Shown: piece by piece, positions 6,035 to 20,815 of the stretch
Layout: every line of letters starts with the position of its first letter
Position numbering within the stretch: the stretch's first letter is position 1
DNA from: Mycolicibacterium tokaiense
Lineage (GTDB): Bacteria > Actinomycetota > Actinomycetes > Mycobacteriales > Mycobacteriaceae
Direction of reading: 5' to 3'
Assembly: GCF_010725885.1 (NCBI RefSeq)
Contig: NZ_AP022600.1
Location: forward strand, 3,286,001-3,350,000
Length of the DNA: 64,000 nt
The notes under the pieces: model-generated
Told to the model about the DNA's origin: nothing
The model's input: the letters and a program-made list of their open reading frames with translations, nothing else
The model's database searches: none
Made by a program: the position numbers and the translations under genes

Positions 6035-6729
6035 GCGGCGGCCGTCGCCCGCGGGGAGAGCACTCGGTGGCCCTGCCAGGCCACCACTGCGGTGATGCCC
6101 GCTGCCAGCCCGAACGGCACGGCGATGTGCACCTTCAGCAGCAGCGCGCCCACCAGGGCTCCGGCGAAGATCATCACGATCGCGCCCAGCCTGCGGTTGA
6201 GCAGCACACCCCGGCCGCCCTTGGTCCAGGTCTCCCCGGCCAGCGAGGCCAGCGTGGAGGTCACCACCACGGTGGTCATGTCGGCGACGCCCACCGCGCG
6301 CGCGACCACGGCCTGCGAGCCCATCACCGCGGCCGTCACGGCGGCCATCACGATCTCCACCACCGGGGCGGAGTCGTCGCCGACCACGGCCGCCACCACC
6401 GTCAGCGCGGTCAGGGTCACCGCGCCGAGCGTCAGCAGCACCGTCACCGTGTGATGCCACCCGGTGCCGCGGGCGGCCCGCGGCTTGCGCAAAGCCAGCC
6501 CAGCCACCCACGCGGCGGCGGTGAACGCCGCCAGCGCGATGGCCGGGCCCAGCACCGGCAGGTCGTCGGCTCCGGCGACGCCCATGCCCAGGATCACGAT
6601 GTTGCCGGTCATGTTCCCGGTGAACACCCGGTCCAGGGCCAGGAACCCCACCGCATCGACCACGCCGGTGACAAAAGTCAGGGCGATCGTCAGGAACAGC
6701 GCGGTCTGGGCCCGTTTGGCGTCGGTCAT
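6031..6729 (-). CDS. DUF1275 (YoaK-type) membrane protein
   Basis: A 232-residue polytopic membrane protein. It contains the family's typical opening, LTFVTGVVDAVGFLAL followed by FTGNMTGNIV in the first 45 residues, and about six hydrophobic segments. DUF1275 proteins are inner-membrane proteins of unknown role. I started at the ATG beginning MTDAKRAQ because the longer frame upstream adds a non-conserved, Pro/His-rich tail. The start lies five bases after the stop of the upstream permease gene, so the two probably form one transcript. It converges on the exported-protein gene. Confidence 0.85.
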   Translation of the reverse strand: MTDAKRAQTALFLTIALTFVTGVVDAVGFLALDRVFTGNMTGNIVILGMGVAGADDLPVLGPAIALAAFTAAAWVAGLALRKPRAARGTGWHHTVTVLLTLGAVTLTALTVVAAVVGDDSAPVVEIVMAAVTAAVMGSQAVVARAVGVADMTTVVVTSTLASLAGETWTKGGRGVLLNRRLGAIVMIFAGALVGALLLKVHIAVPFGLAAGITAVVAWQGHRVLSPRATAAA

Positions 6730-6734
6730 GCCTG

Positions 6735-8270
6735 TCAGAAAACCAGAATCGCGAACACCGTGGACAGGATGAGGCCCGACATCACCGGGATGAAGCACTT
6801 GCGGGCCAGCGTCAACACCGGCACCCGGGCGAAACCGGCCACCGCGATCAACGACGACCAGGCCACCAGGGTGCCGCCGCCGGACCAGATGTTGCCCATC
6901 TGGCCGATCGCGGCCAGGGTGGCGGGATCCATGCCCGCGGCCGGACCCAGCGCACCCGCCAGTGAGCCGGTCAGCGGCAGACCGCTGAAACCGGAGCCGT
7001 CGAGCCCCGCCACCACACCGACCAGCAGTACACCGAAACCGAGCACGAACGGGCTCGGTGTCACGTGCGCCATGGCGGCGCTGATCAGGTCGAACAGGAA
7101 CGCGGGACCGGTGGCGTCGGAGCCCATGCCGAGCACCCGCGCAGAGAAGTCACCACTGCCGATGAAGAAGAACCCGGCGATGGGCAGCACGATGCCCATC
7201 GCCTTGAACGCGAACACCAGGCCGTCGATGATGTGGCGCGACGAGCTCTCGAGGAAGTCGCGCCGGTCATTGGTGGCACTGGCTGCGAACAGCAGCATCG
7301 CTGCGATCCCGCCGACGATGCCCGCGGCGTCACCGCCCTGCAGCGGAGGCACCAGGTCGGTGAACTTGCCCACGAGCAGATACACGATGAACGCGAAGTA
7401 CGCCGCCGGAACCAGGACGGCAAACGTCTTGGCTGCCATGGTCTTCGGTGGCTCGACCACCTCCACGGCATCGGTACGGGTCAAGGTGGCGGTGCCGGAA
7501 GGACCGGTCGGGACGGGCTCGCGAGGGGTGGCTCCGCCGCCGGAACCCGGATCGGTGTCGGGAGTCTCGTCGGGCAGCCCCAGCTTGTCCGCCTTGTTCT
7601 CCCAAGCAACCAGCAGGTCCTGCGACGGCTTCTGCCAGGTGCGCCGCTGCATGAGGTAGGTGATGCCCAGGGCGACCAGGCCGACGATCAGGGAGAGCAC
7701 CAGTGACTTGTCGGCCACGCTGTCGGCGTCCACTCCCGCGGCCGTCGCCGAGATCCCGGGCGCCACCTTGATGATGTAGTCCGACGAGAGCGCCATGCCC
7801 TGCCCGGCAATGGCGATCACCATGCCCACCGACAGCGGGCTCAGGCCGGCGCGGATGGCCACCGGGATCAGCACCGCACCCACCAGCGGCACCGCCGGCG
7901 TCGGCCAGAAGAACAGCGAGATCACGTAGGTGACCACTGCCAGCACGATGAAACTGCTGGTGCTGCCACGCATGATGCCCCGGAAGGGCGTCACCATCAG
8001 CTTGTCGGCGCCCATCTCCCGCAGGGCGCCCAGCATCGCGGTGATCAGCGCGATGATCAGGAAGATGTTGAACAGCTCCTGGGCGGCCACCAGTGAGGCG
8101 TTGAAGATCGACGACAAGCCGGTGACGATGCTGCCGGAGAACACCCAGGCGGTGAGCAGGGTGGCGGTGACGGCTGGAACCAGGATGTTCTTGCGCAGCG
8201 CCATCGTGATGAGGATGACGACGATGCCTGCCAGATATATCCAGTGTGCGGCGGTGAGTTGTGCGTCCAT
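6735..8270 (-). CDS. Ion-transporter-superfamily permease (organic anion symporter-like)
   Basis: A 511-residue protein with two hydrophobic halves separated by a charged, Pro/Gly-rich cytoplasmic linker around residues 220-275. Each half has several helices and a re-entrant-type loop: WPTPAVPLVG and MALSSDYIIK in the first, GLDGSGFSGLPLTG and GNIWSGGGTLVAWSS in the second. That architecture fits the IT superfamily (CitMHS/DcuC/GntP-like secondary carriers) that take up small carboxylates. It does not identify the substrate. It is divergent from the MFS gene across a 324-bp gap and lies close to the PucR gene cluster, so it could feed that pathway; this link is inference. Confidence 0.75.
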   Translation of the reverse strand: MDAQLTAAHWIYLAGIVVILITMALRKNILVPAVTATLLTAWVFSGSIVTGLSSIFNASLVAAQELFNIFLIIALITAMLGALREMGADKLMVTPFRGIMRGSTSSFIVLAVVTYVISLFFWPTPAVPLVGAVLIPVAIRAGLSPLSVGMVIAIAGQGMALSSDYIIKVAPGISATAAGVDADSVADKSLVLSLIVGLVALGITYLMQRRTWQKPSQDLLVAWENKADKLGLPDETPDTDPGSGGGATPREPVPTGPSGTATLTRTDAVEVVEPPKTMAAKTFAVLVPAAYFAFIVYLLVGKFTDLVPPLQGGDAAGIVGGIAAMLLFAASATNDRRDFLESSSRHIIDGLVFAFKAMGIVLPIAGFFFIGSGDFSARVLGMGSDATGPAFLFDLISAAMAHVTPSPFVLGFGVLLVGVVAGLDGSGFSGLPLTGSLAGALGPAAGMDPATLAAIGQMGNIWSGGGTLVAWSSLIAVAGFARVPVLTLARKCFIPVMSGLILSTVFAILVF

Positions 8271-8594
8271 CGGCGAGGTCTTTCGTTACAACTGCTCGTG
8301 GGCTGTGCAGTTTGATTGCAGGAATGCTCGGCTCGATGACCGTGGGGGTCAACGAGCACAGTGCACACCGTTGTGATCTCCACCATGTGCAATATGCGCT
8401 ACGCAAGGCGACGGTGTGACAGCGCGTTTCGCCCAGGTAAACATGCCAACATCACACCACCGGGGCGGAAATCGCGGGCCGTTTCGCACCTCACGGCGCT
8501 GGTCATGTTGACCTGTTGAAGCCTTCTGGGGTGTGCATATCCTCCTGGGCGGGAGCTGCCATCTCCCGGTAGTGGGTGAGACAGTTGTCAGGAC
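8271..8594. other. Divergent intergenic region between two permease genes
   Basis: This 324-bp gap should hold promoters for both the leftward permease and the rightward MFS gene. I see a small inverted repeat, GGGAG-N7-CTCCC, about 30 bases before the MFS start, and widely spaced GGTGTGA/TCACACC arms near its middle. No convincing -35/-10 pair and no coding potential were found. Confidence 0.5.
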
Positions 8595-9950
8595 ATGACT
8601 GACACCGACACCCGGGCCGATGCCGCCGGCACCACCGGTGATGGCACACCGCTGGGGCTGGCCGCCTTGCTGTCGGGCACCTTGCTCGGCACGCTGAGCA
8701 ACAACATCGTCAACGTGCCGCTGCCCGCCATGCTGGCCGATTTCGACGCCCCCTTGAGCAGCGGGGTGTTCGTGGTGGTCGGGTTCCTGCTCACCTTCAC
8801 CGCGACCATGCCGCTGGTGGGCTGGATCGGGGACCGGTTCGGCCGGCGGCGGGTGTACCTGCTGGCTCTGGTGGGCACCGCGGTCTGCGCCATCGGTGCG
8901 GCCACCGCGCCCACGTTGCCGGTGCTGATCGCCTGGCGCTGTGCCGGCGGGGTGGTGGCGGCGGCCTTCGGCCCCGCCGTGATGGGTCTGCTGCAGTGGA
9001 TGTTCTCCGGAGAGCGCCGCGCCAGGGCCGTCGGGTTGTGGGCGTCGGTCAATGGCATCGGGCAGGCGGTCGGCCCTTCGATGGGCGGCTTCATCGCCGA
9101 CGCCTGGGGGTGGCGCTGGGTGTTCGTGCCGCTGGTCCCGGTGGCGCTGGCCGGGCTGATCGGCACCCTGCGCCACGTTCCCGTGCACCCCGGCACCCGG
9201 ATGCGGTTCGACCTGCTCGGCGCGATCGGGCTGACGCTGGGCTCGGGACTGCTGATCCTCGGTATCGCCCTGGTGCCACAGCCGTCCGGGGCGGTGCCGG
9301 CCGCGGCCCTGATCGCCGCGGCCGCCGCGGTGCTGGCCCTGTTCTGGTGGCACTGCCTGCGTGCTGAGCATCCGTTCGTCGACGTGCGGTTGGTTCGCGA
9401 GGCCCGGTTCGTGCGCAGTTCGCTGGCGGCGTTCGCGATGATGTTCAGCCTCGGGGCCGTGCTGCTGTCGGTGCCGCTGTTCCTCACCGGTGCGGGCCGG
9501 TCTGCGTCGGTGTCGGGGCTGGTGCTGCTGGTGGTGCCGGCCACCATGGTGTTGCTGGGCCCGCCGGTGGGCCGGTACATGGACCGGCTGCGTCCCCGCC
9601 GGGTGCTGCGCACCGGACTGGTGCTGCTGGCGGCCGGTCAGGTGGGCCTCGCAGCAGCCATGGGTGGGCAGGTTCCGCTCGGGGTTCTGGTCGCCATCCT
9701 GGCGCTAACCGGGGTCGGCATCGCGTTGGTCCAGACCCCGGCCGCCACCGGCGCCACCCGCTCGCCGGCCGGGGCCCAGGGCACCGGGCTGGGGCTGTAC
9801 AACCTGATCCGGTTCAGCGGGTCGGGCATGGGCGCGGCGTGGGTGGCCATCGCCCTCGGCCTGGCCGGCTACCCGCTGCTGTTCGCGGGGGCCGCCGTGG
9901 TGGTGGCCTTGGGATTCATCGGGTCGTTCTTCGGGCCGGACCCGGCCTAA
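8595..9950 (+). CDS. Major facilitator superfamily permease (DHA2-like drug/metabolite exporter)
   Basis: A 451-residue MFS carrier with at least 12 hydrophobic segments. The loop between helices 2 and 3 carries the MFS signature GWIGDRFGRRRVY (about residues 75-87). The N-terminal half resembles EmrB/QacA-type exporters, with FGPAVMGLLQWMF and GQAVGPSMGGFIADAWGWRWVF near residues 120-180 matching motif C of proton antiporters. It may export a toxic substrate or intermediate. Its 3' end overlaps the PucR gene by four bases in convergent orientation, which places it in the same neighbourhood but not in the same operon. Confidence 0.88.
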   Translation: MTDTDTRADAAGTTGDGTPLGLAALLSGTLLGTLSNNIVNVPLPAMLADFDAPLSSGVFVVVGFLLTFTATMPLVGWIGDRFGRRRVYLLALVGTAVCAIGAATAPTLPVLIAWRCAGGVVAAAFGPAVMGLLQWMFSGERRARAVGLWASVNGIGQAVGPSMGGFIADAWGWRWVFVPLVPVALAGLIGTLRHVPVHPGTRMRFDLLGAIGLTLGSGLLILGIALVPQPSGAVPAAALIAAAAAVLALFWWHCLRAEHPFVDVRLVREARFVRSSLAAFAMMFSLGAVLLSVPLFLTGAGRSASVSGLVLLVVPATMVLLGPPVGRYMDRLRPRRVLRTGLVLLAAGQVGLAAAMGGQVPLGVLVAILALTGVGIALVQTPAATGATRSPAGAQGTGLGLYNLIRFSGSGMGAAWVAIALGLAGYPLLFAGAAVVVALGFIGSFFGPDPA

Positions 9951-11614
9951 CGGAAGCTCGCCTCACGGTCGACGGCCGCGCGCACCTCGGTGAGCATGTC
10001 GAGGCGGATGGCCAGCCAGACCGTGAACTGGTTCTCCGGTGCCCGGATGTCGAGCCCGATGATCCGCGACACCCGGTCCAGCTTGGCCAGCATGGTGTTG
10101 CGGTGCACGTCGAGGGTGCGGGCGGTCGCGTTGACGTTGCCGCCGTGCTCCAGGTAGCGGGTGAGCGTCTCCAGCAGGTCCGGAGACGAGCGCAGCGGTG
10201 TGACGATCTCGGCCAGCAGCGCCCGGCTGTGCTCGGTCTCGGCGATGTCGGCCAGCACCGTGAAGCTGCGCAACTGCTGGTAGGACGTGGCGCCGGTGCG
10301 GCCCAGTCGGCGGGCGATGCCCAGGGCCACCCGGGCTTCCCGGTAGCTGTCGGAGACGTCGCCGGCGCCGCGTGCCGGCCTGCCGTAGGCGACAGCCACG
10401 GGGGTGCCGCGGCGCTTGCGGAGCTCCGCGGTCATGGCCTCGGCGTAGTCGGTCATCTCGGTCCGCATCGCCGCGTTGTCCTGCCCGCGCAGCGACCGGA
10501 CCACCACCAGGACGTCACCGATGACGGTGACGTAGGACTGCACCAGCGGGTCGGGGGACACCCCGGCGGCATAACGGGCCAGCCGGACCATGCTGGCGGC
10601 GGGGTTGTCCACCCCGTGGGGCAGCACGCCCGGTGCGACGAAAACACCGAAGCAGCTGTCGATGTCGATCTCGTGGTGCTCGGCGCGGGCCCGCATGTCG
10701 TGGTCGCTGGAGAAGCTGCCATGCACCAGGGCCTGGACAAAATCGCCGCGGGCCCGTTCCTCGGCCTCGTCGACGCTGTGCTGGCGCAGCATCTCCGAGC
10801 CGATGATGGCCGTGGCCTGCTCGGTGACGACGATGTGGCGGGCGGTGTCGTGTGCACCGGGTTCGGCACCGGGTACCAACACCAGCACCCAGCCCTCGAA
10901 CGCCTTGCCGAGTCGGATCGCGCTGGCGATCACCGTCCACGGGCTGTTGTTCGGTCCCGCAACACGTTCCACGCGGGTGTCGTGTCCACTGTGGCGCCGC
11001 GAGGCCGGCAGGTCGGCGGACAGCATCACCACCACCGACTCGCTGAGCTGGGCCACCGCGTCGTCGGCGAGCCCGTTGTGCGCGACGACATTGCCGCGGG
11101 CGTCCAGGGCCATGGCCGGGTTGCGGGCCAGGTTCGAGACCTCGCGGATCAGCATCTCCAGGCCCGCGCCGCGGTGGAACAGCCCGGCCAGGGAGGCGTG
11201 CACGTGCGTGGAGTACCGCATCACGTGCACTTCCTGGTTGAGCGCACGCTCGGCGAGCAGCCGGTTCAGTGCGGCGAACCCGACCGGGAAACCGAGCTCG
11301 ATGACCACCAGATCGGCGGGCAGCCCGGCGGACAGGAAGTCGGCGGGCAGGCTGCCGTCGACCAGCAGGGTGGTGGCGCCGCGGGCGGTCAGCGCGGTCA
11401 GGGTGCCGTGTTTGCCGAGCAGCGCCTCGGGCCGGCTGTACACCGCCACCCCGTCCAGCGGATCGGGCCGCGAGAGCACCTCGCCCAGCGGCAGCACCCA
11501 CTGCAACTCGACGTGCAGCCGGTCGGCGCCCGCCAGCACCTGCGCGCCCGCCATCAGCGACTCGTCGAGCAAGCCCGCGACCGTCAGCCGGTCGTCCTCA
11601 CTGGTTGCCTGCAC
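9947..11614 (-). CDS. PucR-family transcriptional regulator
   Basis: About 555 residues: an N-terminal PucR sensory domain (LTVAGLLDESLMAGAQVLAGADRL onward), a GAF/CdaR-like middle, and a C-terminal helix-turn-helix (HGGNVNATARTLDVHRNTMLAKLDRVSRIIG) of the PucR HTH_30 type. PucR proteins control catabolic genes for purines, amines and amino acids and are often divergently encoded from their targets, as here. The start is uncertain. I favour the GTG at 11614, preceded by AGGTGAG at good spacing. GTG codons at 11623 and 11695 are alternatives, but the latter sits directly on a TTAAAG element that may be the -10 box. The most likely targets are the eight genes to its right. Confidence 0.85.
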   Translation of the reverse strand: MQATSEDDRLTVAGLLDESLMAGAQVLAGADRLHVELQWVLPLGEVLSRPDPLDGVAVYSRPEALLGKHGTLTALTARGATTLLVDGSLPADFLSAGLPADLVVIELGFPVGFAALNRLLAERALNQEVHVMRYSTHVHASLAGLFHRGAGLEMLIREVSNLARNPAMALDARGNVVAHNGLADDAVAQLSESVVVMLSADLPASRRHSGHDTRVERVAGPNNSPWTVIASAIRLGKAFEGWVLVLVPGAEPGAHDTARHIVVTEQATAIIGSEMLRQHSVDEAEERARGDFVQALVHGSFSSDHDMRARAEHHEIDIDSCFGVFVAPGVLPHGVDNPAASMVRLARYAAGVSPDPLVQSYVTVIGDVLVVVRSLRGQDNAAMRTEMTDYAEAMTAELRKRRGTPVAVAYGRPARGAGDVSDSYREARVALGIARRLGRTGATSYQQLRSFTVLADIAETEHSRALLAEIVTPLRSSPDLLETLTRYLEHGGNVNATARTLDVHRNTMLAKLDRVSRIIGLDIRAPENQFTVWLAIRLDMLTEVRAAVDREASFR

Positions 11615-11713
11615 TGTTCTCACCTGCGCTGTCTTCGGATTCGAGTGGGCCTGGTAATCGAATACACCTCGACTCAGCACACGGCCTATGTGCACTTTAA
11701 CCCGTTTCCGGCC

Positions 11714-11782
11714 TTGTCACCGGACAACTTGGCCCTGCCACTGGGCTCGCCACGTTGGTAGAACTCTTCCCACGTCACCAAC
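11714..11782. promoter_or_regulatory. Inverted repeats in the PucR/GlcG intergenic region (candidate operators)
   Basis: Between the PucR gene and the rightward catabolic genes lie two inverted repeats: TTGTC-ACCG-GACAA (11714-11727) and GTTGGT-N17-ACCAAC (11754-11782). Their position between divergent genes fits operator sites for PucR. There is no direct evidence of binding. Confidence 0.35.
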
Positions 11783-11868
11783 ACCAGCTCAGGGATTTGT
11801 GGAGTCTCACCGGCGGTAGGCGCCGCTGACACTCCGCAAGTCGCACGAAACCGAAGCGAGGCACGCGC

Positions 11869-12318
11869 ATGCACCAAATCCACCGGATCACCCTCGACGA
11901 CGCACTGCCGCTGCTGGCGGCCGGGCGCGCGAAGGCGGAGGAGATCGGCGTCAAGCAGACCCTGTGCGTCGTCGACGACGGCGGCAATGTCCTTGCCCTA
12001 CACCGTCTTCCGGGCGCCCGTCTGACCGGCGTCGACATCGCCATCGCCAAGGCGTTCACCGCCGCCGGCCACGAGCGCGCCACCCACCTGTTCAACGAAC
12101 CCCCGAACGGTCCCGCGCTGCCCGGCAACGAGGCGTTCGGCATCAGCCACATGCTGCCCGGCAAGTTCGCCATCTTCGTCGGCGGCTTCCCCCTGGTGTT
12201 CGACGGGCAGATCGTCGGCGGCGTGGGCATCAGCGGCGGCAACGGCGAGCAGGACAAGGCCGTGGGCGCGGCCATGCTCGCGGAGTTCGCGGCGCTGACG
12301 TCCTCGGTGGCCCGTTAG
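11869..12318 (+). CDS. GlcG/HbpS-like (DUF336) protein
   Basis: A 149-residue protein of the GlcG/HbpS (PduO C-terminal-like) family. It shows the characteristic order CVVDDGGNVLALHRLPGA, IAIAKAFTAA and the C-terminal GGFPLVFDGQIVGGVGISGGNGEQD. Some family members bind haem or sense redox state, and many are encoded inside catabolic operons without a known job. It is the first gene of the block facing PucR. A 158-bp gap separates it from the next gene, so the latter may also have its own promoter. Confidence 0.85.
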   Translation: MHQIHRITLDDALPLLAAGRAKAEEIGVKQTLCVVDDGGNVLALHRLPGARLTGVDIAIAKAFTAAGHERATHLFNEPPNGPALPGNEAFGISHMLPGKFAIFVGGFPLVFDGQIVGGVGISGGNGEQDKAVGAAMLAEFAALTSSVAR

Positions 12319-12476
12319 GCCTGTGCACCATGACCGCCGCAGCGTGTTTGCGCAGGTCATTGTGTCCGTGGTCAGTGCCCGCGACGCTCACTAACGTCGA
12401 CACTGCACCCGCATCGAAGCGGAATCTGTAGCACTGCAGCCCAATTCATCTTCATCCATCTGAGAGGACCGATTTC

Positions 12477-13190
12477 ATGACCGAACTGCTGGGGCGTGAC
12501 GAATTCCGCGCCGAGCTGGAGAACGCCATCAAGGGCCGCGAGGCCAAGAACGCGTCGTTCTCCAAGGCCTGGGCCGACGGCCTGCTGGAGCGTCACCATT
12601 TCGCCCGCTGGGCCGAGAACCACTTCCACTACGTCGGGCCCTTCGCCGACTACCTGGCCAACATCTACGCCAACACCCCCGATCAGTACACCGGCGCCAA
12701 GGACTTCACGCTGCAGAACATGTACGAGGAGGAGTTGGCCGACATCCGGCACACCGATCTGCTGATCAAGTTCGGCGAGGCCTGCGGCACCACCAAGGAA
12801 CGCATCGAAGACCCGAACAACATGAACGCCATCACCCGCGGTCTGCAGTCCTGGTGCTACGCGGTGTCGCAGCGCGAGCACTTCGTGGTGGCCACCGCTG
12901 CCCTGGTGGTGGGCCTGGAGTCGCAGGTGCCCAGCATCTACATGAAGCAGATCGTCCCGCTGCGTGAGGTGTACAAGTTCACCGAGGACGAGATCGAGTT
13001 CTTCGACCTGCACATCACCTCGGACGTGGTGCACGGCGAGCGCGGTTACCAGATCGTGCTCGACCACGCCGACACCGTTGCCCTGCAGCAGCGTTGCCTG
13101 CAGATGGTGCGCTGGGGAGCCGAGATGCGGTTCTCCTACACCAAGGGTCTCTACGACACCTACGTCGCGCCGGAGCTGGCCAGCGTCTAG
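12477..13190 (+). CDS. Haem-oxygenase-fold di-iron oxidase-like protein (TenA/PqqC/CADD family)
   Basis: A 237-residue all-helical protein of the TENA/THI-4/PqqC fold. The six expected metal ligands of haem-oxygenase-like di-iron oxidases can be read at the right spacing: Glu85-x6-His92 in EEELADIRH, Glu148 in GLESQVP, and His179-x3-Asp183-x2-His186 in HITSDVVH. This matches the ligand pattern known for CADD (Glu81, His88, Glu142, His174, Asp178, His181) closely. A metal-dependent oxidase or oxygenase is therefore more likely than a cofactorless PqqC or a TenA thiaminase. The next genes encode a Rieske ferredoxin and its reductase, the electron supply such an enzyme would need. A GAGAGGA ribosome site precedes the ATG. 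The substrate is unknown. Confidence 0.82.
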   Translation: MTELLGRDEFRAELENAIKGREAKNASFSKAWADGLLERHHFARWAENHFHYVGPFADYLANIYANTPDQYTGAKDFTLQNMYEEELADIRHTDLLIKFGEACGTTKERIEDPNNMNAITRGLQSWCYAVSQREHFVVATAALVVGLESQVPSIYMKQIVPLREVYKFTEDEIEFFDLHITSDVVHGERGYQIVLDHADTVALQQRCLQMVRWGAEMRFSYTKGLYDTYVAPELASV

Positions 13191-13243
13191 CGATTTCGGC
13201 GCGCTCGTAACCGCCCAGCGGTTACGAGCGCGCCCGAATCGCA
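13189..13243 (+). repeat. Intercistronic 24-bp-stem hairpin
   Basis: A near-perfect inverted repeat with arms 13190-13213 and 13219-13242 and a five-base loop (CCCAG). Only one position is mismatched and one is a G-T wobble. It begins on the last base of the oxidase stop codon and ends just before the AGGAAAGGG ribosome site of the Rieske gene. No T-run follows, so a simple intrinsic terminator is less likely than an mRNA-stabilising, processing or attenuating element, or a mobile palindromic repeat. Confidence 0.8.
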
Positions 13244-13256
13244 GGAAAGGGACATC

Positions 13257-13586
13257 ATGGGTGAGTGGATCGCGGTGGCCAGCACCAAGGAGCTGGGCCG
13301 CCGTCGCAAGCTGCGGGTCGAGGTCGACGGCACCGCCATTGCCTTGTTCGCCACTGACGGCAAGGTCTACGCGTTCGCCGATCTCTGTGTGCACCAGGAC
13401 CGTTCGCTGTTCAAAGGCACACTGTTGCACGGCAAGGTGATCTGCCCCGGGCACCAGTGGCAGTTCGACCTCGAGACCGGCTACGAGGCCGACCAGGACC
13501 TGTGCCAACCCACCTTCCCGGTGCGGGTGGACGACGACGGCACCGTCTACGTCTGCAAGACCGTCCAACAGGAGATCCCCGCATGA
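13257..13586 (+). CDS. Rieske-type [2Fe-2S] ferredoxin
   Basis: A 109-residue single-domain Rieske protein. The cluster ligands are Cys44-V-His46 and Cys63-P-G-His66, with the usual spacing. Such small soluble proteins carry electrons from a flavoprotein reductase to a terminal oxygenase. The next gene, which overlaps this one by four bases (ATGA), encodes that kind of reductase, and the preceding gene a di-iron oxidase-like protein, so a three-component oxygenase system is plausible. A strong ribosome site (AGGAAAGGG) precedes the ATG. Confidence 0.92.
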   Translation: MGEWIAVASTKELGRRRKLRVEVDGTAIALFATDGKVYAFADLCVHQDRSLFKGTLLHGKVICPGHQWQFDLETGYEADQDLCQPTFPVRVDDDGTVYVCKTVQQEIPA

Positions 13587-14803
13587 CCCGGCCCACCCAT
13601 GTGCTCGTCGGCGCCGGCCAGGCGTCCGCGGTGGCCGCCCGCAACCTGCGCCGCCACGGTTTCGACGGCCGCATCGTGCTGATCGGTGACGAGCCGCACG
13701 CGCCCTACCAGCGCCCGCCGCTGTCCAAGGAGTTCCTCGCCGGCACCGACACCGAGGACTCATTGTGGATCCTGCCGGAGAAGTGGCGCACCGCCAACGA
13801 CATCGACCTGATCACCGGGGCCACCGTCACGCGGGTCGACACCGCCACCGCCACAGTGGAATTGGACAACCACGCACCCATCGCCGCCGATGCCGTGCTG
13901 TTCGCCACCGGCGGCAGCCCGCGCCGGCTGCCGGTACCCGGCCCACGCCCGGACCTGGTGCACTACCTGCGCACCCTCGATGACGCCACCGGCCTGGCCC
14001 CACACCTGGCTCCGGGCCGGCGCCTGGCGATCATCGGTGCGGGCTTCATCGGCCTGGAGTTGGCCGCCACCGCCGTATCGGCCGGTGTGACGGTCACGGT
14101 GTTCGAGACCGCACCGGTCCCGCTGGAGCGCGTGCTCGGCGCCGACCTCGGCACCCTGATCACCCGCATGCACCGCGACAACGGCGTCGACGTCCGTACC
14201 GGCGCGGGTGTGGCGCACCTGCAGACGACGGCGGACGCGGTGCTGGTCGGCGATGAAGAGTTCGACGTACTCGTGATCGGCATCGGCATCACGCCGAATG
14301 TGCAGGCAGCCAACGCAACCGGACTGCACATCGACGACGGCATCGTGGTCGACGCGGCCGGGCGCACGAGTGTGCCCAACGTGTACGCCGCCGGTGACGT
14401 GGCCCGGCGCTTCTCGGCCAGGGCCGGCCGCCACATCCGGGTGGAGCACTTCGACAACGCCAGTCGCCAGGGTGTCGCCGTGGCCGGCGCCATGCTGGGC
14501 CGCGACGCGATCAACGACGACCCGCACTGGTTCTGGTCGGATCAGTTCGGCCGCAACATCCAGAGCGTCGGCTCGCTGACCGGCACCCCGGTGCTGCGTG
14601 GCGATCGCGACGGGCTGGACTTCACCGCCTTCTACCTCGACGGCGGCGCGCTGTGCGGCGCGTTCACCGTCGAACGCGGTGAGGACATCTCGGTGACCCG
14701 CGAACTGCTGGGCCGCGAGTTGGACCCCGCCGTGCTGGGAGACGAGGACACCGACCTGTGGGACCTGGCGTACGAGGACGACATCGAAGAGGTGACGGCA
14801 TGA
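13583..14803 (+). CDS. FAD-dependent ferredoxin reductase
   Basis: A 406-residue flavoprotein of the oxygenase-coupled NADH-ferredoxin reductase type (BphA4/rhodocoxin-reductase family). The N-terminal FAD motif is VGAGQASAVAARNLR, followed by YQRPPLSKEFL, an NAD-binding IIGAGFIGLELAATAVSAG, and the second FAD site NVYAAGDVAR. The C-terminal reductase domain with HFDNASRQG and FWSDQFGRNIQSVG is also present. It should transfer electrons from NAD(P)H to one or both Rieske ferredoxins of the operon. The start overlaps the Rieske stop (ATGA) and the stop overlaps the aldehyde dehydrogenase start in the same way, so stoichiometry is probably fixed by translational coupling. Confidence 0.92.
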   Translation: MTRPTHVLVGAGQASAVAARNLRRHGFDGRIVLIGDEPHAPYQRPPLSKEFLAGTDTEDSLWILPEKWRTANDIDLITGATVTRVDTATATVELDNHAPIAADAVLFATGGSPRRLPVPGPRPDLVHYLRTLDDATGLAPHLAPGRRLAIIGAGFIGLELAATAVSAGVTVTVFETAPVPLERVLGADLGTLITRMHRDNGVDVRTGAGVAHLQTTADAVLVGDEEFDVLVIGIGITPNVQAANATGLHIDDGIVVDAAGRTSVPNVYAAGDVARRFSARAGRHIRVEHFDNASRQGVAVAGAMLGRDAINDDPHWFWSDQFGRNIQSVGSLTGTPVLRGDRDGLDFTAFYLDGGALCGAFTVERGEDISVTRELLGRELDPAVLGDEDTDLWDLAYEDDIEEVTA

Positions 14804-16239
14804 TCGAGGGTTTGAACTTCATCGGCGGGAACTGGGTGCCCGCGGTGTCCGGGGCCACCTTCACCCGCAGCAACCCCGCCGACCCCGGTGACGTCATCGG
14901 CGCGTTCCCGGACTCCGGCGCCGACGACGTGCGCCTGGCCGTCGACAGCCTGGCTGCTGCTGCGCCTGCCTGGGCGGCCACCTCACCCGAGCGCCGCGCC
15001 GGTATCCTGGAAGCTGCTGCGGCGCAACTGGAGTCACGCAGCGACCAGCTGATCGCCGAGCTGGTCCGCGAAGAGGGCAAAACGCTGGCCGAGGCCACCA
15101 TGGAGGTCAGCCGCACCCCGATGAACCTGCGGTTCTACGCCGCCGAGGCCACCCGCAGCTGCGGCGCCACCTATCCCGTGGCGGGGCAGACGCTGCTCTA
15201 CACGGTGCGGGAGCCGATCGGCATCGTGGGCGCCATCACCCCGTGGAATTTCCCGCTCAACATCCCGTCCCGCAAGCTCGGGCCGGCGCTGGCGGTGGGA
15301 AACCCGGTGCTGTTCAAACCTTCTGAGATCACCCCGCTGATGGGGCAGCGGCTGGTGGAAGCCCTGCTGGCCGGGGGACTGCCGCCGGAGGTCATCGCGC
15401 TGGTGCAGGGCGGCGGGGCCGCCGGTGCCGCCGTGGCCGGCGACGAGCGCGTGGCCGCGGTGACCTTCACCGGATCCACCGCGGTGGGCAGACTGATCCA
15501 CAGCCAGGTGGGCCCGCACCGGCGGGTGCAGTTGGAGATGGGTGGCAAGAACCCGGTGGTGGTGGCACCCGACGCCGACCCCGAACGCGCAGCTGCTCTG
15601 ATCGTCAAGGGCGCCTTCGGCCTGTCCGGGCAGGCCTGCACCGGTACCAGCCGGGTGATCGTCACCGAGGCCAACCACGACGCCGTGGTCGATGCCGTTG
15701 TCGCGCGCGCCGAAGCGCTGCAGGTGGGCCCCGGCGCCGACACCGGCATCGACATGGGTGCACTCGCCAGCGCCGAGCAGCACAAGAAATTCCTGGGCTA
15801 CGTCCAGGCCGGCATCGAGGACGGCGCCACCTTGCGCTGCGGCGGCGAGGACACCGGTGGCAACGGATTCTTCGTGCGTCCCGCGGTGTTCACCGACGCC
15901 ACCGCAGGCATGCGCATCGTCGACGAAGAGGTGTTCGGACCGTTGATCGCCGTGCAACGGGTGAGCACCCTCGACGACGCCATCGACGCGGCCAACAACA
16001 CCGAGTTCGGGCTCTCGGCCGCCATCGTCACCAACGACCTCACCGTCGCCCAGGAGTTCTCCCGCCGCTCGAAGACCGGGCTGGTCAAGATCAATCAGCC
16101 CACCACCGGGATGGCGATGAACGCGCCGTTCGGCGGCTACAAAGCGTCCTCGACCGCCACCTTCAAAGAGCAGGCCGGCGCGTCGATGATCGAGTTCTAC
16201 CTCAACGAGAAGACCATCTATATGAATCCGGGACTGTGA
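14800..16239 (+). CDS. NAD(P)-dependent aldehyde dehydrogenase (ketoglutarate-semialdehyde dehydrogenase-like)
   Basis: A 479-residue aldehyde dehydrogenase that oxidises an aldehyde to the acid. The catalytic residues are all visible: Asn150 in TPWNFPLN, Lys173 in FKPSE, Glu246 in LEMGGKNP and the nucleophile Cys280 in GQACTGTSR. The N-terminal FIGGNWVPA and the overall sequence recall alpha-ketoglutaric or succinic semialdehyde dehydrogenases. This suggests a carboxylated semialdehyde as substrate, but that is inference. The start overlaps the reductase stop by four bases; the next gene starts one base after its stop. Confidence 0.92.
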   Translation: MIEGLNFIGGNWVPAVSGATFTRSNPADPGDVIGAFPDSGADDVRLAVDSLAAAAPAWAATSPERRAGILEAAAAQLESRSDQLIAELVREEGKTLAEATMEVSRTPMNLRFYAAEATRSCGATYPVAGQTLLYTVREPIGIVGAITPWNFPLNIPSRKLGPALAVGNPVLFKPSEITPLMGQRLVEALLAGGLPPEVIALVQGGGAAGAAVAGDERVAAVTFTGSTAVGRLIHSQVGPHRRVQLEMGGKNPVVVAPDADPERAAALIVKGAFGLSGQACTGTSRVIVTEANHDAVVDAVVARAEALQVGPGADTGIDMGALASAEQHKKFLGYVQAGIEDGATLRCGGEDTGGNGFFVRPAVFTDATAGMRIVDEEVFGPLIAVQRVSTLDDAIDAANNTEFGLSAAIVTNDLTVAQEFSRRSKTGLVKINQPTTGMAMNAPFGGYKASSTATFKEQAGASMIEFYLNEKTIYMNPGL

Positions 16240-16240
16240 C

Positions 16241-16624
16241 ATGACTGATCAGATCGACGACACCACAACCGAATTCGTCAGGGTGGCGCGCTCCGGCCAG
16301 GTGCCGGAGGGCATCGTGCGCCGGTTCTACGCCGGCGAGCACGAATTCGCCGTGGCGCGGTTGAAGGGCAAGGCGTACGCCACCTCCAATTACTGCACGC
16401 ATCTGGACTGCCTGCTGTCGTCGGGCAAGCTGCGCGACGACGGGATCGGCTGCTCCTGCCACGGCAGTGCGTTCGACCTGGAGACCGGCGAACCGATCAG
16501 CCCACCGGCCACCGAACCCATCAAGACCTATCCCTGCCAGGAGCGTGACGGCGAGATCTTCGTCGGGGTCAATCCCGGTGAGGCACCGTCCGGCCCCACC
16601 CGGCGGCAGCGTCGGCAAGGATGA
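16241..16624 (+). CDS. Second Rieske-type [2Fe-2S] ferredoxin
   Basis: A 127-residue Rieske protein with cluster ligands Cys52-T-His54 and Cys71-x2-His74 (CSCHGS). It differs clearly from the first Rieske protein of the operon and has an N-terminal extension of about ten residues and a Pro-rich tail. The CSCHGSAFDLETGEP motif is nearer to assimilatory or biphenyl-type Rieske ferredoxins. Two ferredoxins with a single reductase in one operon suggests two electron-accepting steps, or one being the oxidase's partner and the other serving a different enzyme. The stop overlaps the next start (ATGA). Confidence 0.9.
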   Translation: MTDQIDDTTTEFVRVARSGQVPEGIVRRFYAGEHEFAVARLKGKAYATSNYCTHLDCLLSSGKLRDDGIGCSCHGSAFDLETGEPISPPATEPIKTYPCQERDGEIFVGVNPGEAPSGPTRRQRRQG

Positions 16625-18195
16625 CACCCGTGCGCCCGCCCACCCTGTCGGCCTCGGCCATGGTCAGCAGCAGCCATCCCGCTGCCAGCCTGGCCGGCGC
16701 CCGAGTCCTGGCCGACGGCGGCAACGCCGTCGATGCCACCCTGGCGATGGCCGCGATGACGTGGCTCACCCTGCCCGGTCAGTGCGGTATCGGCGGCGAC
16801 GCGTTCGCCGTGGTCCGCGAACCGGACGGGCGGGTCTGGACCGTCAACGGGTCCGGCTTCGGGCCCGACGGCGGCACCGCGGACTTCTACCGGGCGCAGG
16901 GAATGTCGCGCATCCCCAGGGTCGGGCCGCTGTCGGTCACGGTGCCGGGTGCACCCGCGGCGCTGACGGCGCTGCACGCCCACGGTGGCACCCGGGCGCT
17001 CTCCGAGCTGTGGGCGCCGGTGGCCGACGCCGCCGAACGTGGGCTGCCCTGCTCGGCGCGCACCGCCGGCGACGTGGCGGAGGCACTGCACGACGGCGAC
17101 CCCGGGCTGCTGTCGGTGTACGCGCGGGCGCAGGTGGGCACCCAGCTGCCCCAACCCGATCTGGCCGCGACCATCCGCCGGCTCGCCGACGACCCGGCCT
17201 GGTTCTACACCGGCGAGTTCGCGCAGCGCGCGGTGGCGATGTTGCAGGCTGACGACGTTCCCTTCTCCGGCGACGAATGGGCGGCCGGGGCCGCGGTGGC
17301 GCGGGAGGGCGCGATCACCGGCCGCTACGCCGGTGCCGTGGTGCATCAGACCCCGCTGCCGACGCCGGGCTGGATGGTGCTGCAGCAGGCGGCACTCTGC
17401 GACGCGGCCGTCGGCTTCAGCGGATGGCTCTCGGCCCCGGCCGTCGATCGGATGGCCCGGGCCGCGCGGTTGACCTTCGCTGATCGATTTGTGTTGTGCG
17501 GCAATGACAATGACGGTTCCCGTTATGTGCTGGATCCGGATCGTATTCGCGCGCAGCGCCGCGATCTGGACGAGCGCACCGAAGCGCGCACACCCGTCGA
17601 CGTCGGCGCCGGCGACACCACCTCCACCGTCGCGGTGGATTCCGAGGGCCGGGCCGTCAGCTTCATCCACTCGCTCGGGTTCACCTTCGGCGCCATGATC
17701 ACCGTGCCGGGCACCGGGGTGGTGCTCAACAACCGCCTGGGACGCGGGGCATATCTGATCGAGGGACACCCCAACGAGGTGGCGCCGCGGCGCAAGCCGC
17801 TGCACACCCTGAACGCCTGGGTGGTCACCGACGACGCCGGCGAGCTGCTGCACGTGGGCAACACCCCCGGCGGCGACGGGCAGGTGCAGTGGAACATGCA
17901 GCTGCTCTCGCACCTGCTCGACCACGGGCTGGACCCGGCCGAGGCCGTAGCCGCACCGCGGTTCACCGTGTTCCCCGGCTCGGACGCAGACGTCATCGGC
18001 GCCCCCGACGAGTTGCGCGTCGAAGAGACGCTGCCCGAGCCGGTCCGGCGGGAGCTGGCCGAGCACCACCACGTCGTGGTGCAGCCGGCCCTGGGCGGCG
18101 GCGGCAGCGCGCAGGTGATCTCGCGGGACGAGCGCGGCATCCTCTTCGGTGCCGCCGACCCGCGCCAGGAAGGGATCGCCCTCGGTGTGGGGTGA
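16621..18195 (+). CDS. Gamma-glutamyltransferase-family Ntn-hydrolase
   Basis: A 524-residue member of the GGT family, which self-cleaves before a catalytic threonine. The expected processing site is GDTTSTVAVD, with Thr334 as likely nucleophile, followed by FGAMITVPGTGVVLNNR. A GTPGG-like segment (NTPGGDGQVQWN, about residues 417-428) should form the oxyanion region. There is no signal peptide, so it is probably cytoplasmic, unlike periplasmic glutathione-degrading GGTs. The RExAP-type motif that binds the glutamyl alpha-carboxylate in E. coli GGT is replaced by GSGFGPDGGT near residues 77-86. The acyl group removed may therefore not be plain gamma-glutamyl. It overlaps both neighbours by four bases. 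Confidence 0.87.
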   Translation: MTPVRPPTLSASAMVSSSHPAASLAGARVLADGGNAVDATLAMAAMTWLTLPGQCGIGGDAFAVVREPDGRVWTVNGSGFGPDGGTADFYRAQGMSRIPRVGPLSVTVPGAPAALTALHAHGGTRALSELWAPVADAAERGLPCSARTAGDVAEALHDGDPGLLSVYARAQVGTQLPQPDLAATIRRLADDPAWFYTGEFAQRAVAMLQADDVPFSGDEWAAGAAVAREGAITGRYAGAVVHQTPLPTPGWMVLQQAALCDAAVGFSGWLSAPAVDRMARAARLTFADRFVLCGNDNDGSRYVLDPDRIRAQRRDLDERTEARTPVDVGAGDTTSTVAVDSEGRAVSFIHSLGFTFGAMITVPGTGVVLNNRLGRGAYLIEGHPNEVAPRRKPLHTLNAWVVTDDAGELLHVGNTPGGDGQVQWNMQLLSHLLDHGLDPAEAVAAPRFTVFPGSDADVIGAPDELRVEETLPEPVRRELAEHHHVVVQPALGGGGSAQVISRDERGILFGAADPRQEGIALGVG

Positions 18196-18620
18196 ACCCG
18201 GTGTCGACTGACGCCCCGCCGCCGCAGGGTGACTACATCCCCGCGGTGCTGCACGACGGCGTGGTCCACACCGCCGGGATGACGCCGCGACGCGACGGGG
18301 TGCTGCTGGTCAGCGGCATCGTGGGGGAGACGTTGAGCGTCGAGGAAGCCCGTGCGGCGGCGGCCATCGCCGTGGGAAACGCCCTGGCTGCGGTCCGTTC
18401 CGTGCTGCCCGCGGGCGCAGGCCTGCGGTGTCTGAAGATGACGGTGTTCATTGCGTGTGCGCCGGGCTTCACCCAGCTCAGCGCGGTCGCCGACGGTGCC
18501 TCCGCCGTGATCGCCGAACAGCTGGGCCGCCCAGGTCTGCCCGCGCGGTCGGCCATCGGCGTACTGTCGCTGCCGTCCGGTGCCCCCGTCGAGGTGGAGC
18601 TCACCGCCGCTGTGGTGTAA
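18192..18620 (+). CDS. RidA (YjgF/YER057c/UK114) family protein
   Basis: A 142-residue RidA-fold protein, with VVHTAGMTPRRDGVLLVSGIVG near the start and a YjgF-type trimer core through RSAIGVLSLPSGAPVEVELTAAVV. RidA enzymes hydrolyse reactive enamines and imines, releasing ammonia. I chose the GTG at 18192 because it overlaps the GGT stop by four bases (GTGA), the same junction as three others in this operon; a GTG at 18201 is the alternative. The usual RidA arginine is not obvious in the C-terminal strand where I would expect it, apart from Arg in PARSAIG. Its presence suggests that the pathway makes an enamine or imine intermediate. Confidence 0.87.
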   Translation: MNPVSTDAPPPQGDYIPAVLHDGVVHTAGMTPRRDGVLLVSGIVGETLSVEEARAAAAIAVGNALAAVRSVLPAGAGLRCLKMTVFIACAPGFTQLSAVADGASAVIAEQLGRPGLPARSAIGVLSLPSGAPVEVELTAAVV

Positions 18621-18634
18621 CTCGCGCGCCGAAA

Positions 18635-18651
18635 CCGACGTTTTCCGTCGG
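18635..18651 (+). terminator. Possible weak terminator after the RidA gene
   Basis: A short hairpin, CCGACG-TTTTC-CGTCGG, lies 15 bases after the RidA stop and before the promoter of the spc operon. Its stem has only six pairs and no T-tract follows it, so it is a candidate end of the catabolic operon but not a strong one. Confidence 0.35.
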
Positions 18652-18679
18652 CCACTCGGGCGGTGTCACGAGCAGGGAT

Positions 18680-18708
18680 TTGGAGCAAAGCTGGCTGTCA
18701 CCTAGACT
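18680..18708 (+). promoter_or_regulatory. Promoter of the spc ribosomal operon
   Basis: A -35-like TTGGAG (18680-18685) and a -10 TAGACT (18703-18708) are separated by 17 bases. Transcription would start near 18715, giving a leader of about 163 bases before rplN. The -10 lies in a small palindrome, CCTAG-ACT-CTAGG. The promoter in front of infA has the same -35 hexamer, spacing and leader length. Confidence 0.6.
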
Positions 18709-18877
18709 CTAGGGGTTGCCGTGGGCAGACCTCGGCTGTCGCCTGTGCTCAGGAGATGGCTCTGCGTGCCTTTCGACAACAAAGACCGCGCACGACAGGT
18801 TTATCAGCCTGCCCGGAATCCGGGGAGGGTGGCTTCTCCTGGCGTGCACACAGATAAATCAGGTCTGAGGAGATCTA

Positions 18878-19246
18878 GTGATTCAGCAGGAATCGCGGCT
18901 CAAGGTCGCCGACAACACGGGCGCCAAGGAGATCTTGTGCATCCGCGTGCTCGGCGGCTCGTCGCGGCGCTACGCCGGCATCGGTGATGTCATCGTGGCG
19001 ACCGTCAAGGACGCCATCCCGGGCGGCAACGTCAAGCGTGGCGACGTCGTCAAGGCCGTTGTGGTGCGCACCGTCAAGGAGCGTCGTCGCGCCGACGGCA
19101 GCTACATCAAGTTCGACGAGAACGCCGCCGTCATCATCAAGGCCGACAACGATCCGCGCGGCACCCGCATCTTCGGCCCGGTCGGGCGCGAGCTGCGTGA
19201 GAAGCGCTTCATGAAGATCGTCTCGCTGGCTCCGGAGGTTTTGTAA
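18878..19246 (+). CDS. rplN: 50S ribosomal protein L14
   Basis: A full-length 122-residue L14. It begins [18 protein letters not shown] and carries the family signature around [14 protein letters not shown]14 binds 23S rRNA at the subunit interface. A GTG start follows a TCTGAGGAGATCT ribosome site. It is the first gene of the spc cluster, whose genes run rplN-rplX-rplE-rpsN-rpsH-rplF-rplR-rpsE-rpmD-rplO. In this genome the S10-type genes that usually precede rplN are not next to it. Confidence 0.98.
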
Positions 19247-19564
19247 ATGAAGGTCCGCAAGGGCGACACCGTGCTCGTCATCTCGGGCAAGGACAAGGGC
19301 GCCAAGGGCAAGGTCCTGGTGGCCTACCCCGACCGCGAGCGCGTGCTCGTCGAGGGCGTCAACCGCATCAAGAAGCACACCCCGGTCTCGGCCAACCAGC
19401 GTGGCGCGTCCTCGGGCGGCATCGTCACCCAGGAAGCCCCGATCCACGTGTCGAACGTGATGGTCATCGATTCCGACGGCAAGCCGACCCGCGTCGCGAT
19501 CCGTCGTGACGAGGAGACGGGCAAGAACGTCCGCATCGCCAAGACCAACGGCAAGGACATCTGA
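19247..19564 (+). CDS. rplX: 50S ribosomal protein L24
   Basis: A 105-residue L24 with the KOW motif at the N-terminus ([19 protein letters not shown]). L24 starts assembly of the 50S subunit by binding the 5' domain of 23S rRNA. Its ATG directly follows the rplN stop with no intervening base, so the two are translationally coupled. Confidence 0.98.
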
Positions 19565-19569
19565 GAGAC

Positions 19570-20142
19570 ATGACCACAGTAGAGAGCAACGAGAAGGTTC
19601 AGCCCCGGCTGAAGCAGCGCTACCGCGACGAGATCAAGGGCGCGCTGAACACCCAGTTCGAGTACGCCAACGTCATGCAGATCCCCGGCGTGGTGAAGGT
19701 CATCGTCAACATGGGTGTCGGTGACGCCGCCCGCGACGCCAAGCTGATCAACGGCGCCGTCAACGACCTGGCGCTGATCACCGGCCAGAAGCCCGAGATC
19801 CGCAAGGCCCGCAAGTCCATCGCCCAGTTCAAGCTGCGCGAAGGCATGCCGATCGGTGCGCGCGTCACGCTGCGTGGCGACCGGATGTGGGAGTTCCTGG
19901 ACCGGCTGATCTCGATCGCCCTGCCGCGTATCCGCGACTTCCGTGGCCTGAGCCCCAAGCAGTTCGACGGGACCGGCAACTACACGTTCGGCCTCAACGA
20001 GCAGTCGATGTTCCACGAGATCGACGTCGACTCCATCGACCGCCCCCGCGGCATGGACATCACCGTCGTCACCTCGGCGACCAACGACGACGAGGGGCGT
20101 GCGCTGCTGCGGGCCCTCGGTTTCCCGTTCAAGGAGAACTGA
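19570..20142 (+). CDS. rplE: 50S ribosomal protein L5
   Basis: A 190-residue L5, which binds 5S rRNA and helps form the central protuberance. The conserved [40 protein letters not shown] (read as the continuous signature region, residues about 70-98) and [15 protein letters not shown] are present. The N-terminus has a short mycobacterial extension ([12 protein letters not shown]). It starts five bases after rplX. Confidence 0.98.
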
Positions 20143-20146
20143 GCAG

Positions 20147-20332
20147 ATGGCAAAGAAAGCTCTGGTCAACAAGGCCAACAAGAAGCCCAAGTTCGCGGTG
20201 CGCGCCTACACGCGGTGCAACAGGTGCGGTCGCCCGCACGCGGTCTACCGCAAGTTCGGACTCTGCCGGATCTGCCTGCGTGAGATGGCTCATGCGGGCG
20301 AGCTGCCCGGTGTGCAGAAGTCCAGCTGGTAA
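20147..20332 (+). CDS. rpsN: 30S ribosomal protein S14, zinc-binding form (type Z)
   Basis: A 61-residue S14 starting four bases after rplE. It is the short form with a zinc ribbon made by two CxxC pairs, CNRC and CRIC. Actinobacteria commonly keep this form in the spc operon and a zinc-free paralogue elsewhere for zinc starvation. An 84-base gap follows before rpsH, the longest inside this operon. Confidence 0.97.
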
Positions 20333-20416
20333 ACCCTCCCCCTTCCTGACAAGCACATCGCGGAAGGCCAGCACACATGTGCGGGGAACCGCCGCGAGAA
20401 AGGTGACACACCTGTC

Positions 20417-20815
20417 ATGACAATGACGGATCCGATCGCAGACTTCTTGACGCGTCTGCGCAACGCCAACTCGGCGTATCACGACGAAGTGACCCTGCCG
20501 CACTCGAAGATCAAGGCGAACATCGCCGAGATCCTCAAAAAAGAGGGTTACATCAGCGACTACCGCACCGAGGACGCCCGGGTGGGCAAGTCCCTGGTGG
20601 TTCAGCTCAAGTACGGCCCCAGCCGTGAGCGCAGCATCGCCGGCCTGCGACGGGTGTCCAAGCCCGGTCTGCGGGTCTACGCGAAGTCGACCAACCTGCC
20701 GCGCGTGCTCGGCGGCCTGGGCGTGGCGATCATCTCCACGTCCTCGGGCCTGCTGACCGACCGTCAGGCAGCACGATCGGGCGTGGGCGGCGAAGTCCTC
20801 GCGTACGTCTGGTAG
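20417..20815 (+). CDS. rpsH: 30S ribosomal protein S8
   Basis: A 132-residue S8, a primary binder of 16S rRNA and translational repressor of the spc operon in E. coli. It has [16 protein letters not shown] at the start and the C-terminal [26 protein letters not shown] signature region. The ATG at 20417 is used; a second in-frame ATG six bases later is equally placed. The 84-base gap upstream contains no stable hairpin that I could identify as an S8 target. Confidence 0.98.

Follow-up and report, generated by a model that had tools for sequence, protein, structure and literature searches.

We analyzed a 64,000-nt stretch of Mycolicibacterium tokaiense DNA (the window; positions 3,286,001 to 3,350,000 of contig NZ_AP022600.1, from a 6.33-Mb single-contig genome) and describe a gene cassette built around OXI, a predicted heme-oxygenase-like dimetal oxidase (HDO). 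We propose, with a probability of about 0.5, that the cassette is catabolic and would act on a small, negatively charged nitrogen-containing organic compound by oxidative C-N or C-C cleavage next to the nitrogen. A small nitrogen-containing acid is probably broken down by this cassette of soil-bacterium genes, which has been kept together across two phyla.

In the proposed scheme, permease M would import the substrate, and electrons would pass from NADH through an FAD reductase and one or more ferredoxins to the HDO enzyme, which would activate O2 and cleave a C-N or C-C bond beside the nitrogen to give an aldehyde and an imine or enamine. The imine would be cleared by RidA, or in Burkholderiaceae by an ornithine-cyclodeaminase-type enzyme (OCD), and the aldehyde would be oxidized to the acid by an aldehyde dehydrogenase (ALDH). 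A DUF336 protein may bind or sense the aldehyde and, in some lineages only, a GGT-family Ntn hydrolase may cleave an amide bond in the substrate or in an intermediate. Through the hairpin that follows the OXI gene, the oxidase can probably be produced in excess over the electron carriers. With slightly less than even confidence, we further suggest a new class of multicomponent oxygenase that would serve nutrient catabolism, in which an HDO is the terminal enzyme of an NADH-dependent chain whose two [2Fe-2S] carriers are exchangeable. We know of no catabolic role for the HDO fold, and this would be the first; it would also mean that electron modules, Rieske or plant-type, were swapped between phyla while the oxidase stayed 65-69% identical.

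Gene content and linkage of the cassette

Gene identities were assigned by Pfam and NCBIfam scans of the window proteins. A sequence-only reading had described an operon of a di-iron oxidase-like protein and its partners facing a PucR gene at 9947-18620; all the genes it named were found there with recognized domains, and the junctions of the last six genes (13257-18620: -4, -4, +1, -4 and -4 nt) match its description. The operon stood as described and its extent did not, as the cassette appears to comprise 12 genes and to reach 6031, adding DUF1275, M and the MFS transporter. Right of the Rid gene, a ribosomal-protein run starts with rplN. The features are as follows, paired bit values being score/cut-off:

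6031-6729, minus strand: DUF1275 membrane protein, outer edge of the cassette (Pfam PF06912, 110 bits)
6735-8270, minus strand: permease M, without a Pfam family, DASS/INDY-like fold
8595-9950, plus strand: DHA2-type MFS transporter (PF07690; TIGR00711 under its cut-off)
9947-11695, minus strand: PucR/CdaR-type regulator (HTH_30 and GGDEF_2 above cut-off)
11688-11694, unstranded: conserved ATGTGCA motif, candidate operator or promoter element (upstream-region alignment)
11869-12318, plus strand: DUF336 (HbpS/GlcG/EfgA) protein, candidate aldehyde binder (PF03928, 113 bits)
12477-13190, plus strand: HDO-type di-iron oxidase (OXI), predicted terminal oxygenase (Haem_oxygenas_2)
13191-13241, plus strand: hairpin between OXI and the electron-transfer genes (51 nt, -42.3 kcal/mol)
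13257-13586, plus strand: Rieske ferredoxin 1, ferredoxin type (PF00355; CxH...CxxH)
13583-14803, plus strand: FAD/NAD(H) ferredoxin reductase, HcaD/AndAa type (Pyr_redox_2 and Reductase_C; NF042949 344/450 bits)
14800-16239, plus strand: ALDH (PF00171; best NCBIfam match 2,5-dioxovalerate dehydrogenase, 495/750 bits)
16241-16624, plus strand: Rieske protein 2 with bc1-like extra cysteines, C.H..C...C.CHGS (PF00355)
16621-18195, plus strand: GGT-family Ntn hydrolase, predicted amidase (PF01019)
18192-18620, plus strand: Rid-family protein with the RidA arginine (PF01042)

The species-genome scan gave 372 OXI relatives, of which the best 80 were retained, and linkage was counted in the 62 of these loci with both 10-kb flanks, the 18 with cut flanks being excluded. 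The genes of the window were searched by tblastn (E 1e-10, 40% query coverage), and L004, an actinobacterial metagenome-assembled genome, was grouped with the mycobacteria. OXI, Rieske 1, the reductase and Rieske 2 were each present in all 62 loci, ALDH and PucR in 61, HbpS (DUF336) and Rid in 60, GGT and MFS in 57, and M in 54; M was unscored in 8 of the 25 loci outside Mycolicibacterium and Rhodococcus/Gordonia, in several of which its fragment runs past the end of the stretch. These genes occur in 13 patterns of order and content, including those differing by missing genes, which we read as about six basic arrangements. The control genes sulfatase, rplN and rplE were found in 17/20 mycobacterial loci compared to 0/42 of the others; only these three count, since the other five of the eight controls lie at or beyond the 10-kb flank in the window arrangement and are uninformative. 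The expectation that the genes travel together was supported, the set being conserved and the controls not beyond mycobacteria. Because the linkage survives rearrangement, it is strong evidence that the cassette is a functional unit. The OXI distances correlate with those of HbpS, ALDH and GGT (r 0.70, 0.65 and 0.84), but the pairs are non-independent and the values were not used as a test.

OXI is patchy in the genus (12/118 genomes). Across the phylum it occurred at 74% identity or more in 4/396 genomes, including that of the window, and the other 37 genomes with OXI matches hold distant relatives (30% identity or less). We inspected the insertion site in seven genomes of the genus, five without OXI and two carriers. 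In four of the five OXI-less genomes the sulfatase gene lies 1.0-2.2 kb from rplN with no cassette gene between them, and the fifth (L125) has other content, about 11 kb, at the site before rplN. One carrier (L123) has the entire DUF1275-to-Rid block between sulfatase and rplN; in the other (L124) the block is close to rplN and sulfatase is past the end of the stretch. The block at 6031-18620 appears to have been acquired or lost as a whole at this one position, and DUF1275, M and MFS therefore belong to the system; the DUF1275 family is present in 37/81 loci.

The gap before rplN holds varied cargo in the genus: the cassette, little or nothing, or other content as in L125. L002 (16468-19421) and nine further Mycolicibacterium loci carry another member of the orphan permease family, together with an amidase-family gene, between the Rid gene and rplN; the window lacks both.

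The oxidase and its electron carriers in two phyla

The ligand residues E85, H92, E148, H179, D183 and H186 of OXI are invariant in 14/14 diverse rows and make up the full 3-His/3-carboxylate HDO set of the core helices, and the structural model shows the seven-helix heme-oxygenase fold, matching CADD, UndA, HrmI, FlcD and BesC. N48, H49, D58, K75, R121 and R133, all polar or charged, are invariant as well and might bind a charged substrate. By ligand set and fold we assign OXI to the HDOs, with metal binding and O2 activation predicted; together with the adjoining two-ferredoxin electron supply, this supports the earlier proposal of a di-iron enzyme. The protein is highly conserved, with 134 of 237 positions at 99% (50 of 149 in 69 rows for DUF336). 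In the fold comparisons of OXI and M, families missing from the match lists are not evidence of absence.

The closest sequence and fold neighbors of OXI are CADD/PabS and PqqC, and OXI might accordingly be a self-sacrificing p-aminobenzoate synthase of the CADD/PabS type or a PqqC enzyme. We give this a negligible chance and rejected both assignments. The positions of the sacrificial Tyr and its partner Lys, presumably Tyr27 and Lys152 of CADD, are occupied in OXI by Ser29 and Gln158, both invariant; TIGR04305 scored 82/200 bits and TIGR02111, the PqqC model, 41.6/240 bits, under its equivalog cut-off.

The CxH...CxxH cluster ligands were present in 132/132 members of the Rieske families. The bc1-type cysteine motif was found in 0/72 members of the Rieske 1 family, and bc1-like extra cysteines with CHGS in 55/60 members of the Rieske 2 family; given this difference, the two carriers probably differ in potential. 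Domain scans found no Rieske dioxygenase subunits in the cassette of the window, where OXI is the only candidate oxygenase.

Among plasmid records, OXI was found in six places (65-69% identity), every one of them in Burkholderiaceae. L101 and L128 are from the same species and L102 and L129 are identical in these genes, leaving about four independent records. Each of the six has OXI, DUF336 (56-61% identity), ALDH (46-48%) and M (44-50%), along with two plant-type [2Fe-2S] ferredoxins, a 2Fe-2S reductase (FNR-type by its record name and our own sequence reading rather than a domain scan), an OCD and a GntR regulator. Homologs of Rieske 1, Rieske 2, the reductase, GGT, Rid and PucR were found in 0/6 records. 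An alpha/beta hydrolase and an MFS transporter were present in the two Caballeronia records only, and neither a GGT nor an alpha/beta type hydrolase was found in the four Cupriavidus records. Solved relatives of OCD include ketimine and pyrroline-carboxylate reductases, and the six proteobacterial rows form one clade in the OXI tree (100/100). Two distant actinobacterial loci, L106 and L107, have one Rieske and one plant-like ferredoxin beside OXI, in addition to OCD, GntR and a distant GGT (31-32% identity); L107 also encodes a Rid protein and a DAO-type flavoenzyme, and L106 a short Rid-like open reading frame (ORF).

Since a Rieske pair, a mixed pair or a plant-type pair may stand beside OXI, the predicted ferredoxin pair is conserved as a function and not as a family. 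The constant part in both phyla is OXI with two [2Fe-2S] carriers, ALDH, DUF336 and an imine enzyme (Rid or OCD), and a predicted anion-type permease is part of the set in most loci. Imine handling and aldehyde oxidation, both postulated before, recur even with non-homologous enzymes.

We made three further observations on these loci. The plant-like ferredoxins beside the oxidase (L106 9133-9498 and L107 10363-10743) have Asp for the expected third cluster Cys (CxxxxCGTD). A small orphan protein is encoded between the two plant-type ferredoxin genes (L101 10400-10720, L102 13078-13428); it is 36-43% identical across the four Cupriavidus records, and the L101 copy has no Pfam family. The DAO-type FAD oxidoreductase of L107 (11136-12272) lies within the oxidase-ferredoxin-reductase run, a hint that an intermediate may be an amine or an amino acid.

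Transport, regulation and accessory enzymes

The model of permease M matched DASS/INDY carriers over its whole length, at 9-13% identity in the top 15 rows, as well as MleN and TRAP carriers, and many of the matched carriers handle organic anions. The fold supports the placement of this permease in the IT superfamily, to which DASS/INDY carriers belong. The sequence family of M had no Pfam, PDB or close NCBIfam match, and its relatives are named hypothetical, membrane protein or permease only (among the 120 of 3427 matches listed).

The PucR assignment was upheld by HTH_30 (66.4 bits, cut-off 27), and the nitrogen catabolism deduced from it was weakened, given that HTH_30 and GGDEF_2 alone score above cut-off and that GntR is the regulator in Burkholderiaceae. 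The N-terminal PucR sensory domain gave no match at E 0.01, although divergence could hide such a domain. The true PucR start is probably further in, at 11614 or nearby, because the annotated start at 11695 overlaps the non-coding ATGTGCA motif, of which each column is at least 88% conserved in a hand-chosen set of 17 aligned upstream regions.

A stem of at least 12 (one mismatch allowed) was found in 57/73 gaps between OXI and Rieske 1 compared to 29/307 control gaps. As controls we took the remaining gaps of 30-200 nt between codirectional genes of these loci, from our own gene caller; 6/79 OXI-Rieske 1 gaps were shorter than 30 nt and were excluded. Up to 11 loci whose match does not begin near 10 kb still contribute their OXI gaps to the controls, which would lessen the contrast. 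Compared to mononucleotide shuffles, hairpin energies reached z < -3 in 32/79 gaps; several loci have no hairpin, and in example gaps the hairpin is kept while the sequence differs. The hairpin may serve to terminate the OXI transcript or to protect it. An Rfam scan of 3000-20500 gave no RNA family at its gathering score.

The GGT-family protein has the nucleophile pair T333/T334 in 60/60 rows, aligned with the nucleophile region. Ser78 stands at the position of the glutamyl-carboxylate-binding Arg, which we take to be Arg114 of the Escherichia coli enzyme (59/60 rows, with one gap), and this replacement makes gamma-glutamyl specificity unlikely; TIGR00066 scored 203.9/357.85 bits, under its cut-off. 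By tblastn, GGT was not found in 5/25 complete loci outside Mycolicibacterium and Rhodococcus/Gordonia. The sequence-only reading had the pathway begin with GGT acting on a gamma-glutamyl compound or acyl-amino acid. Apart from the intact Thr pair, the evidence goes the other way, as the glutamyl-binding Arg is lost and GGT is absent from several lineages, including all six Burkholderiaceae records, and we regard such a pathway as very improbable. Neither the gamma-glutamyl substrate nor amide cleavage as the core step was sustained, and the predicted amidase is an add-on.

R119 of the Rid protein, presumably the catalytic Arg, is kept in at least 99% of 57 rows. The protein is outside the TIGR00004 subfamily by score (28.8/106.25 bits), and its nearest solved relative is PA0814 (9bk9). 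The best NCBIfam and PDB relatives of ALDH are broad, leaving its substrate undecided by kinship.

Next to OXI, DUF336 is among the most conserved proteins, with 81-97% identity among those of mycobacteria, Rhodococcus and Gordonia, and its nearest solved relatives include EfgA (6bws). Residues K61, S122 and D129, invariant in 69 rows, align with K57, S114 and D121 of EfgA; these Lys/Ser/Asp formaldehyde-site residues are common across DUF336 and not specific to EfgA. EfgA binds formaldehyde, with Lys, Ser and Asp residues implicated, and the available text of the same report describes relatives of DUF336 in pathways that generate aldehydes, with genes in clusters for glycolate, propanediol and chloroaniline and in aldehyde-confining microcompartments (PMC8153426). 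The kinship to EfgA, together with Rid, MFS efflux and the patchy occurrence in the genus, would also suit a cassette whose role is to remove a toxic aldehyde or nitrogen compound and not to use a nutrient. We consider detoxification improbable, as it would be unusual for such a system to have its own uptake-type permease and so long an operon.

Several observations weigh against the catabolic reading. Some loci lack GGT, and one order of steps therefore does not suit every locus. In some genera the matches to ALDH and PucR fall to 30-42% identity and may be paralogs. No M was detected in L106 or L107, PucR and MFS were not found in L108, and no reductase was recognized in L106. The L106 cluster includes a luciferase-like monooxygenase gene (13075-13968) between the MFS and OCD genes, and in L102 a ring-hydroxylating dioxygenase lies about 10 kb from OXI. 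Among the fold matches of M are also carriers for phosphate (Pho90) and sulfate (NaS1) as well as ArsB carriers, the MFS protein is an export-type pump, and DUF336 often occurs outside such cassettes (217 plasmid records). In addition, the available part of a review treats HDOs as enzymes of biosynthesis (PMC13108848). This view and the DHA2-type MFS transporter would fit an HDO that N-oxygenates or rearranges an amino acid into a small molecule secreted through MFS. However, outside the cassette and DUF1275 every gene family is confined to 18/81 loci or fewer and no shared ligase or tailoring set was seen, and the dedicated anion-type permease, ALDH, Rid/OCD and exchangeable regulator suit catabolism better, making biosynthesis distinctly unlikely.

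A special case of the catabolic reading is ring cleavage of an N-heterocyclic carboxylate, modeled on the flavin-dependent pyridine and trigonelline pathways: the HDO would open the ring, ALDH would act on the semialdehyde, the amidase would remove the acyl group and RidA would deaminate the enamine. ALDH, amidase and Rid are a fitting set of tools, the L106 cluster includes the luciferase-like monooxygenase, and on an Arthrobacter plasmid a related permease gene is accompanied by genes for an LLM flavin monooxygenase, an amidase, an ALDH and a Rid protein. On the other hand, the Arthrobacter ALDH is just 35% identical, the four Cupriavidus records have no detected GGT or alpha/beta hydrolase, and characterized HDO substrates are mostly fatty and amino acids, according to the available review text (PMC13108848). 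We consider this special case unlikely, though the least so of the alternatives.

The L106 luciferase-like monooxygenase is a possible second oxygenase of the pathway there. On the Arthrobacter plasmid (L104 12001-24232), a 42% permease homolog lies near genes for the LLM monooxygenase, a flavin reductase, VOC, an enoyl-CoA hydratase, a ligase, the amidase and ALDH; the first half of the L104 Rid gene is TetR-like by our own reading. Elsewhere in the window, a tRNA-Arg called by ARAGORN at 5594-5665 lies inside an ORF (5444-6034) with no Rfam tRNA there and is probably a false call, four LCM-family methyltransferase genes stand in tandem at 28562-32199, and a DUF222 gene (44432-46003) has a weak codon score given its length.

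Comparison with known systems

The sequence-only reading knew of no described pathway with this combination, and we found none with the same gene set in the literature searched, a limited library in which the name NahX also had no match. The cassette would name the redox partners, transporter, aldehyde sink and likely imine product of one widespread HDO subfamily; with these partners named, the HDO substrate could be found by growth tests and the chemistry tested in vitro. It would also give context to an orphan permease family, to cassette-linked DUF336 proteins and to 3hdj, whose solved structure is so far labeled no more than a probable ornithine cyclodeaminase.

The GGT-family protein shares the Ntn fold and nucleophile with the GGT-like amidohydrolases 2i3o, 2nlz and 5hft (the last presumably HpxW), and NGSG replaces the Arg segment as in 2i3o and 2nlz; it is at least 54% identical among close members and 31-32% to L106/L107, and its nearest solved relatives are only generically named. 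Permease M shares the whole-length fold of DASS/INDY (SLC13) carriers and differs by its low identity and lack of Pfam or PDB sequence relatives. The DUF336 protein shares family and three formaldehyde-site residues with EfgA, whose own gene context is not conserved across methylotrophs in the available text (PMC8153426).

The Rieske ferredoxin and reductase are of the same type as those of the HcaC/HcaD and AndAb/AndAa chains, under equivalog cut-offs. Unlike those chains, the cassette is without Rieske dioxygenase subunits, has the HDO as its sole oxygenase-like protein and carries an extra bc1-like Rieske protein. The aib cluster (AibH1H2GF) of Rhodococcus wratislaviensis is a similar cassette of di-iron oxygenase, Rieske ferredoxin, NADH reductase, ALDH and permease, and its substrate is an amino acid (PMC7782822). 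It differs by a heterotetrameric oxygenase of amidohydrolase fold, a 2Fe-2S domain in the reductase and a LysR regulator, and no GGT, Rid or DUF336 gene is mentioned in the available text (PMC7782822). DnfA of the Dnf system for direct ammonia oxidation was rejected as an analog, as it resembles AurF/CmlI and not HDOs (PMC9478400).

The HDO superfamily has more than 10,000 sequences and about a dozen members with validated functions, and its member MboA likewise needs a redox partner, for its second step, as stated in the available review text (PMC13108848). OXI shares the fold and 3-His/3-carboxylate ligands of this superfamily (CADD/PabS, UndA, BesC, SznF, FlcD, HrmI, PolF and MboA/MboB) but is without the CADD Tyr/Lys and has its own reductase and two ferredoxins. 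No shared biosynthetic neighbors were seen around it; OXI is linked instead to uptake, ALDH and imine enzymes.

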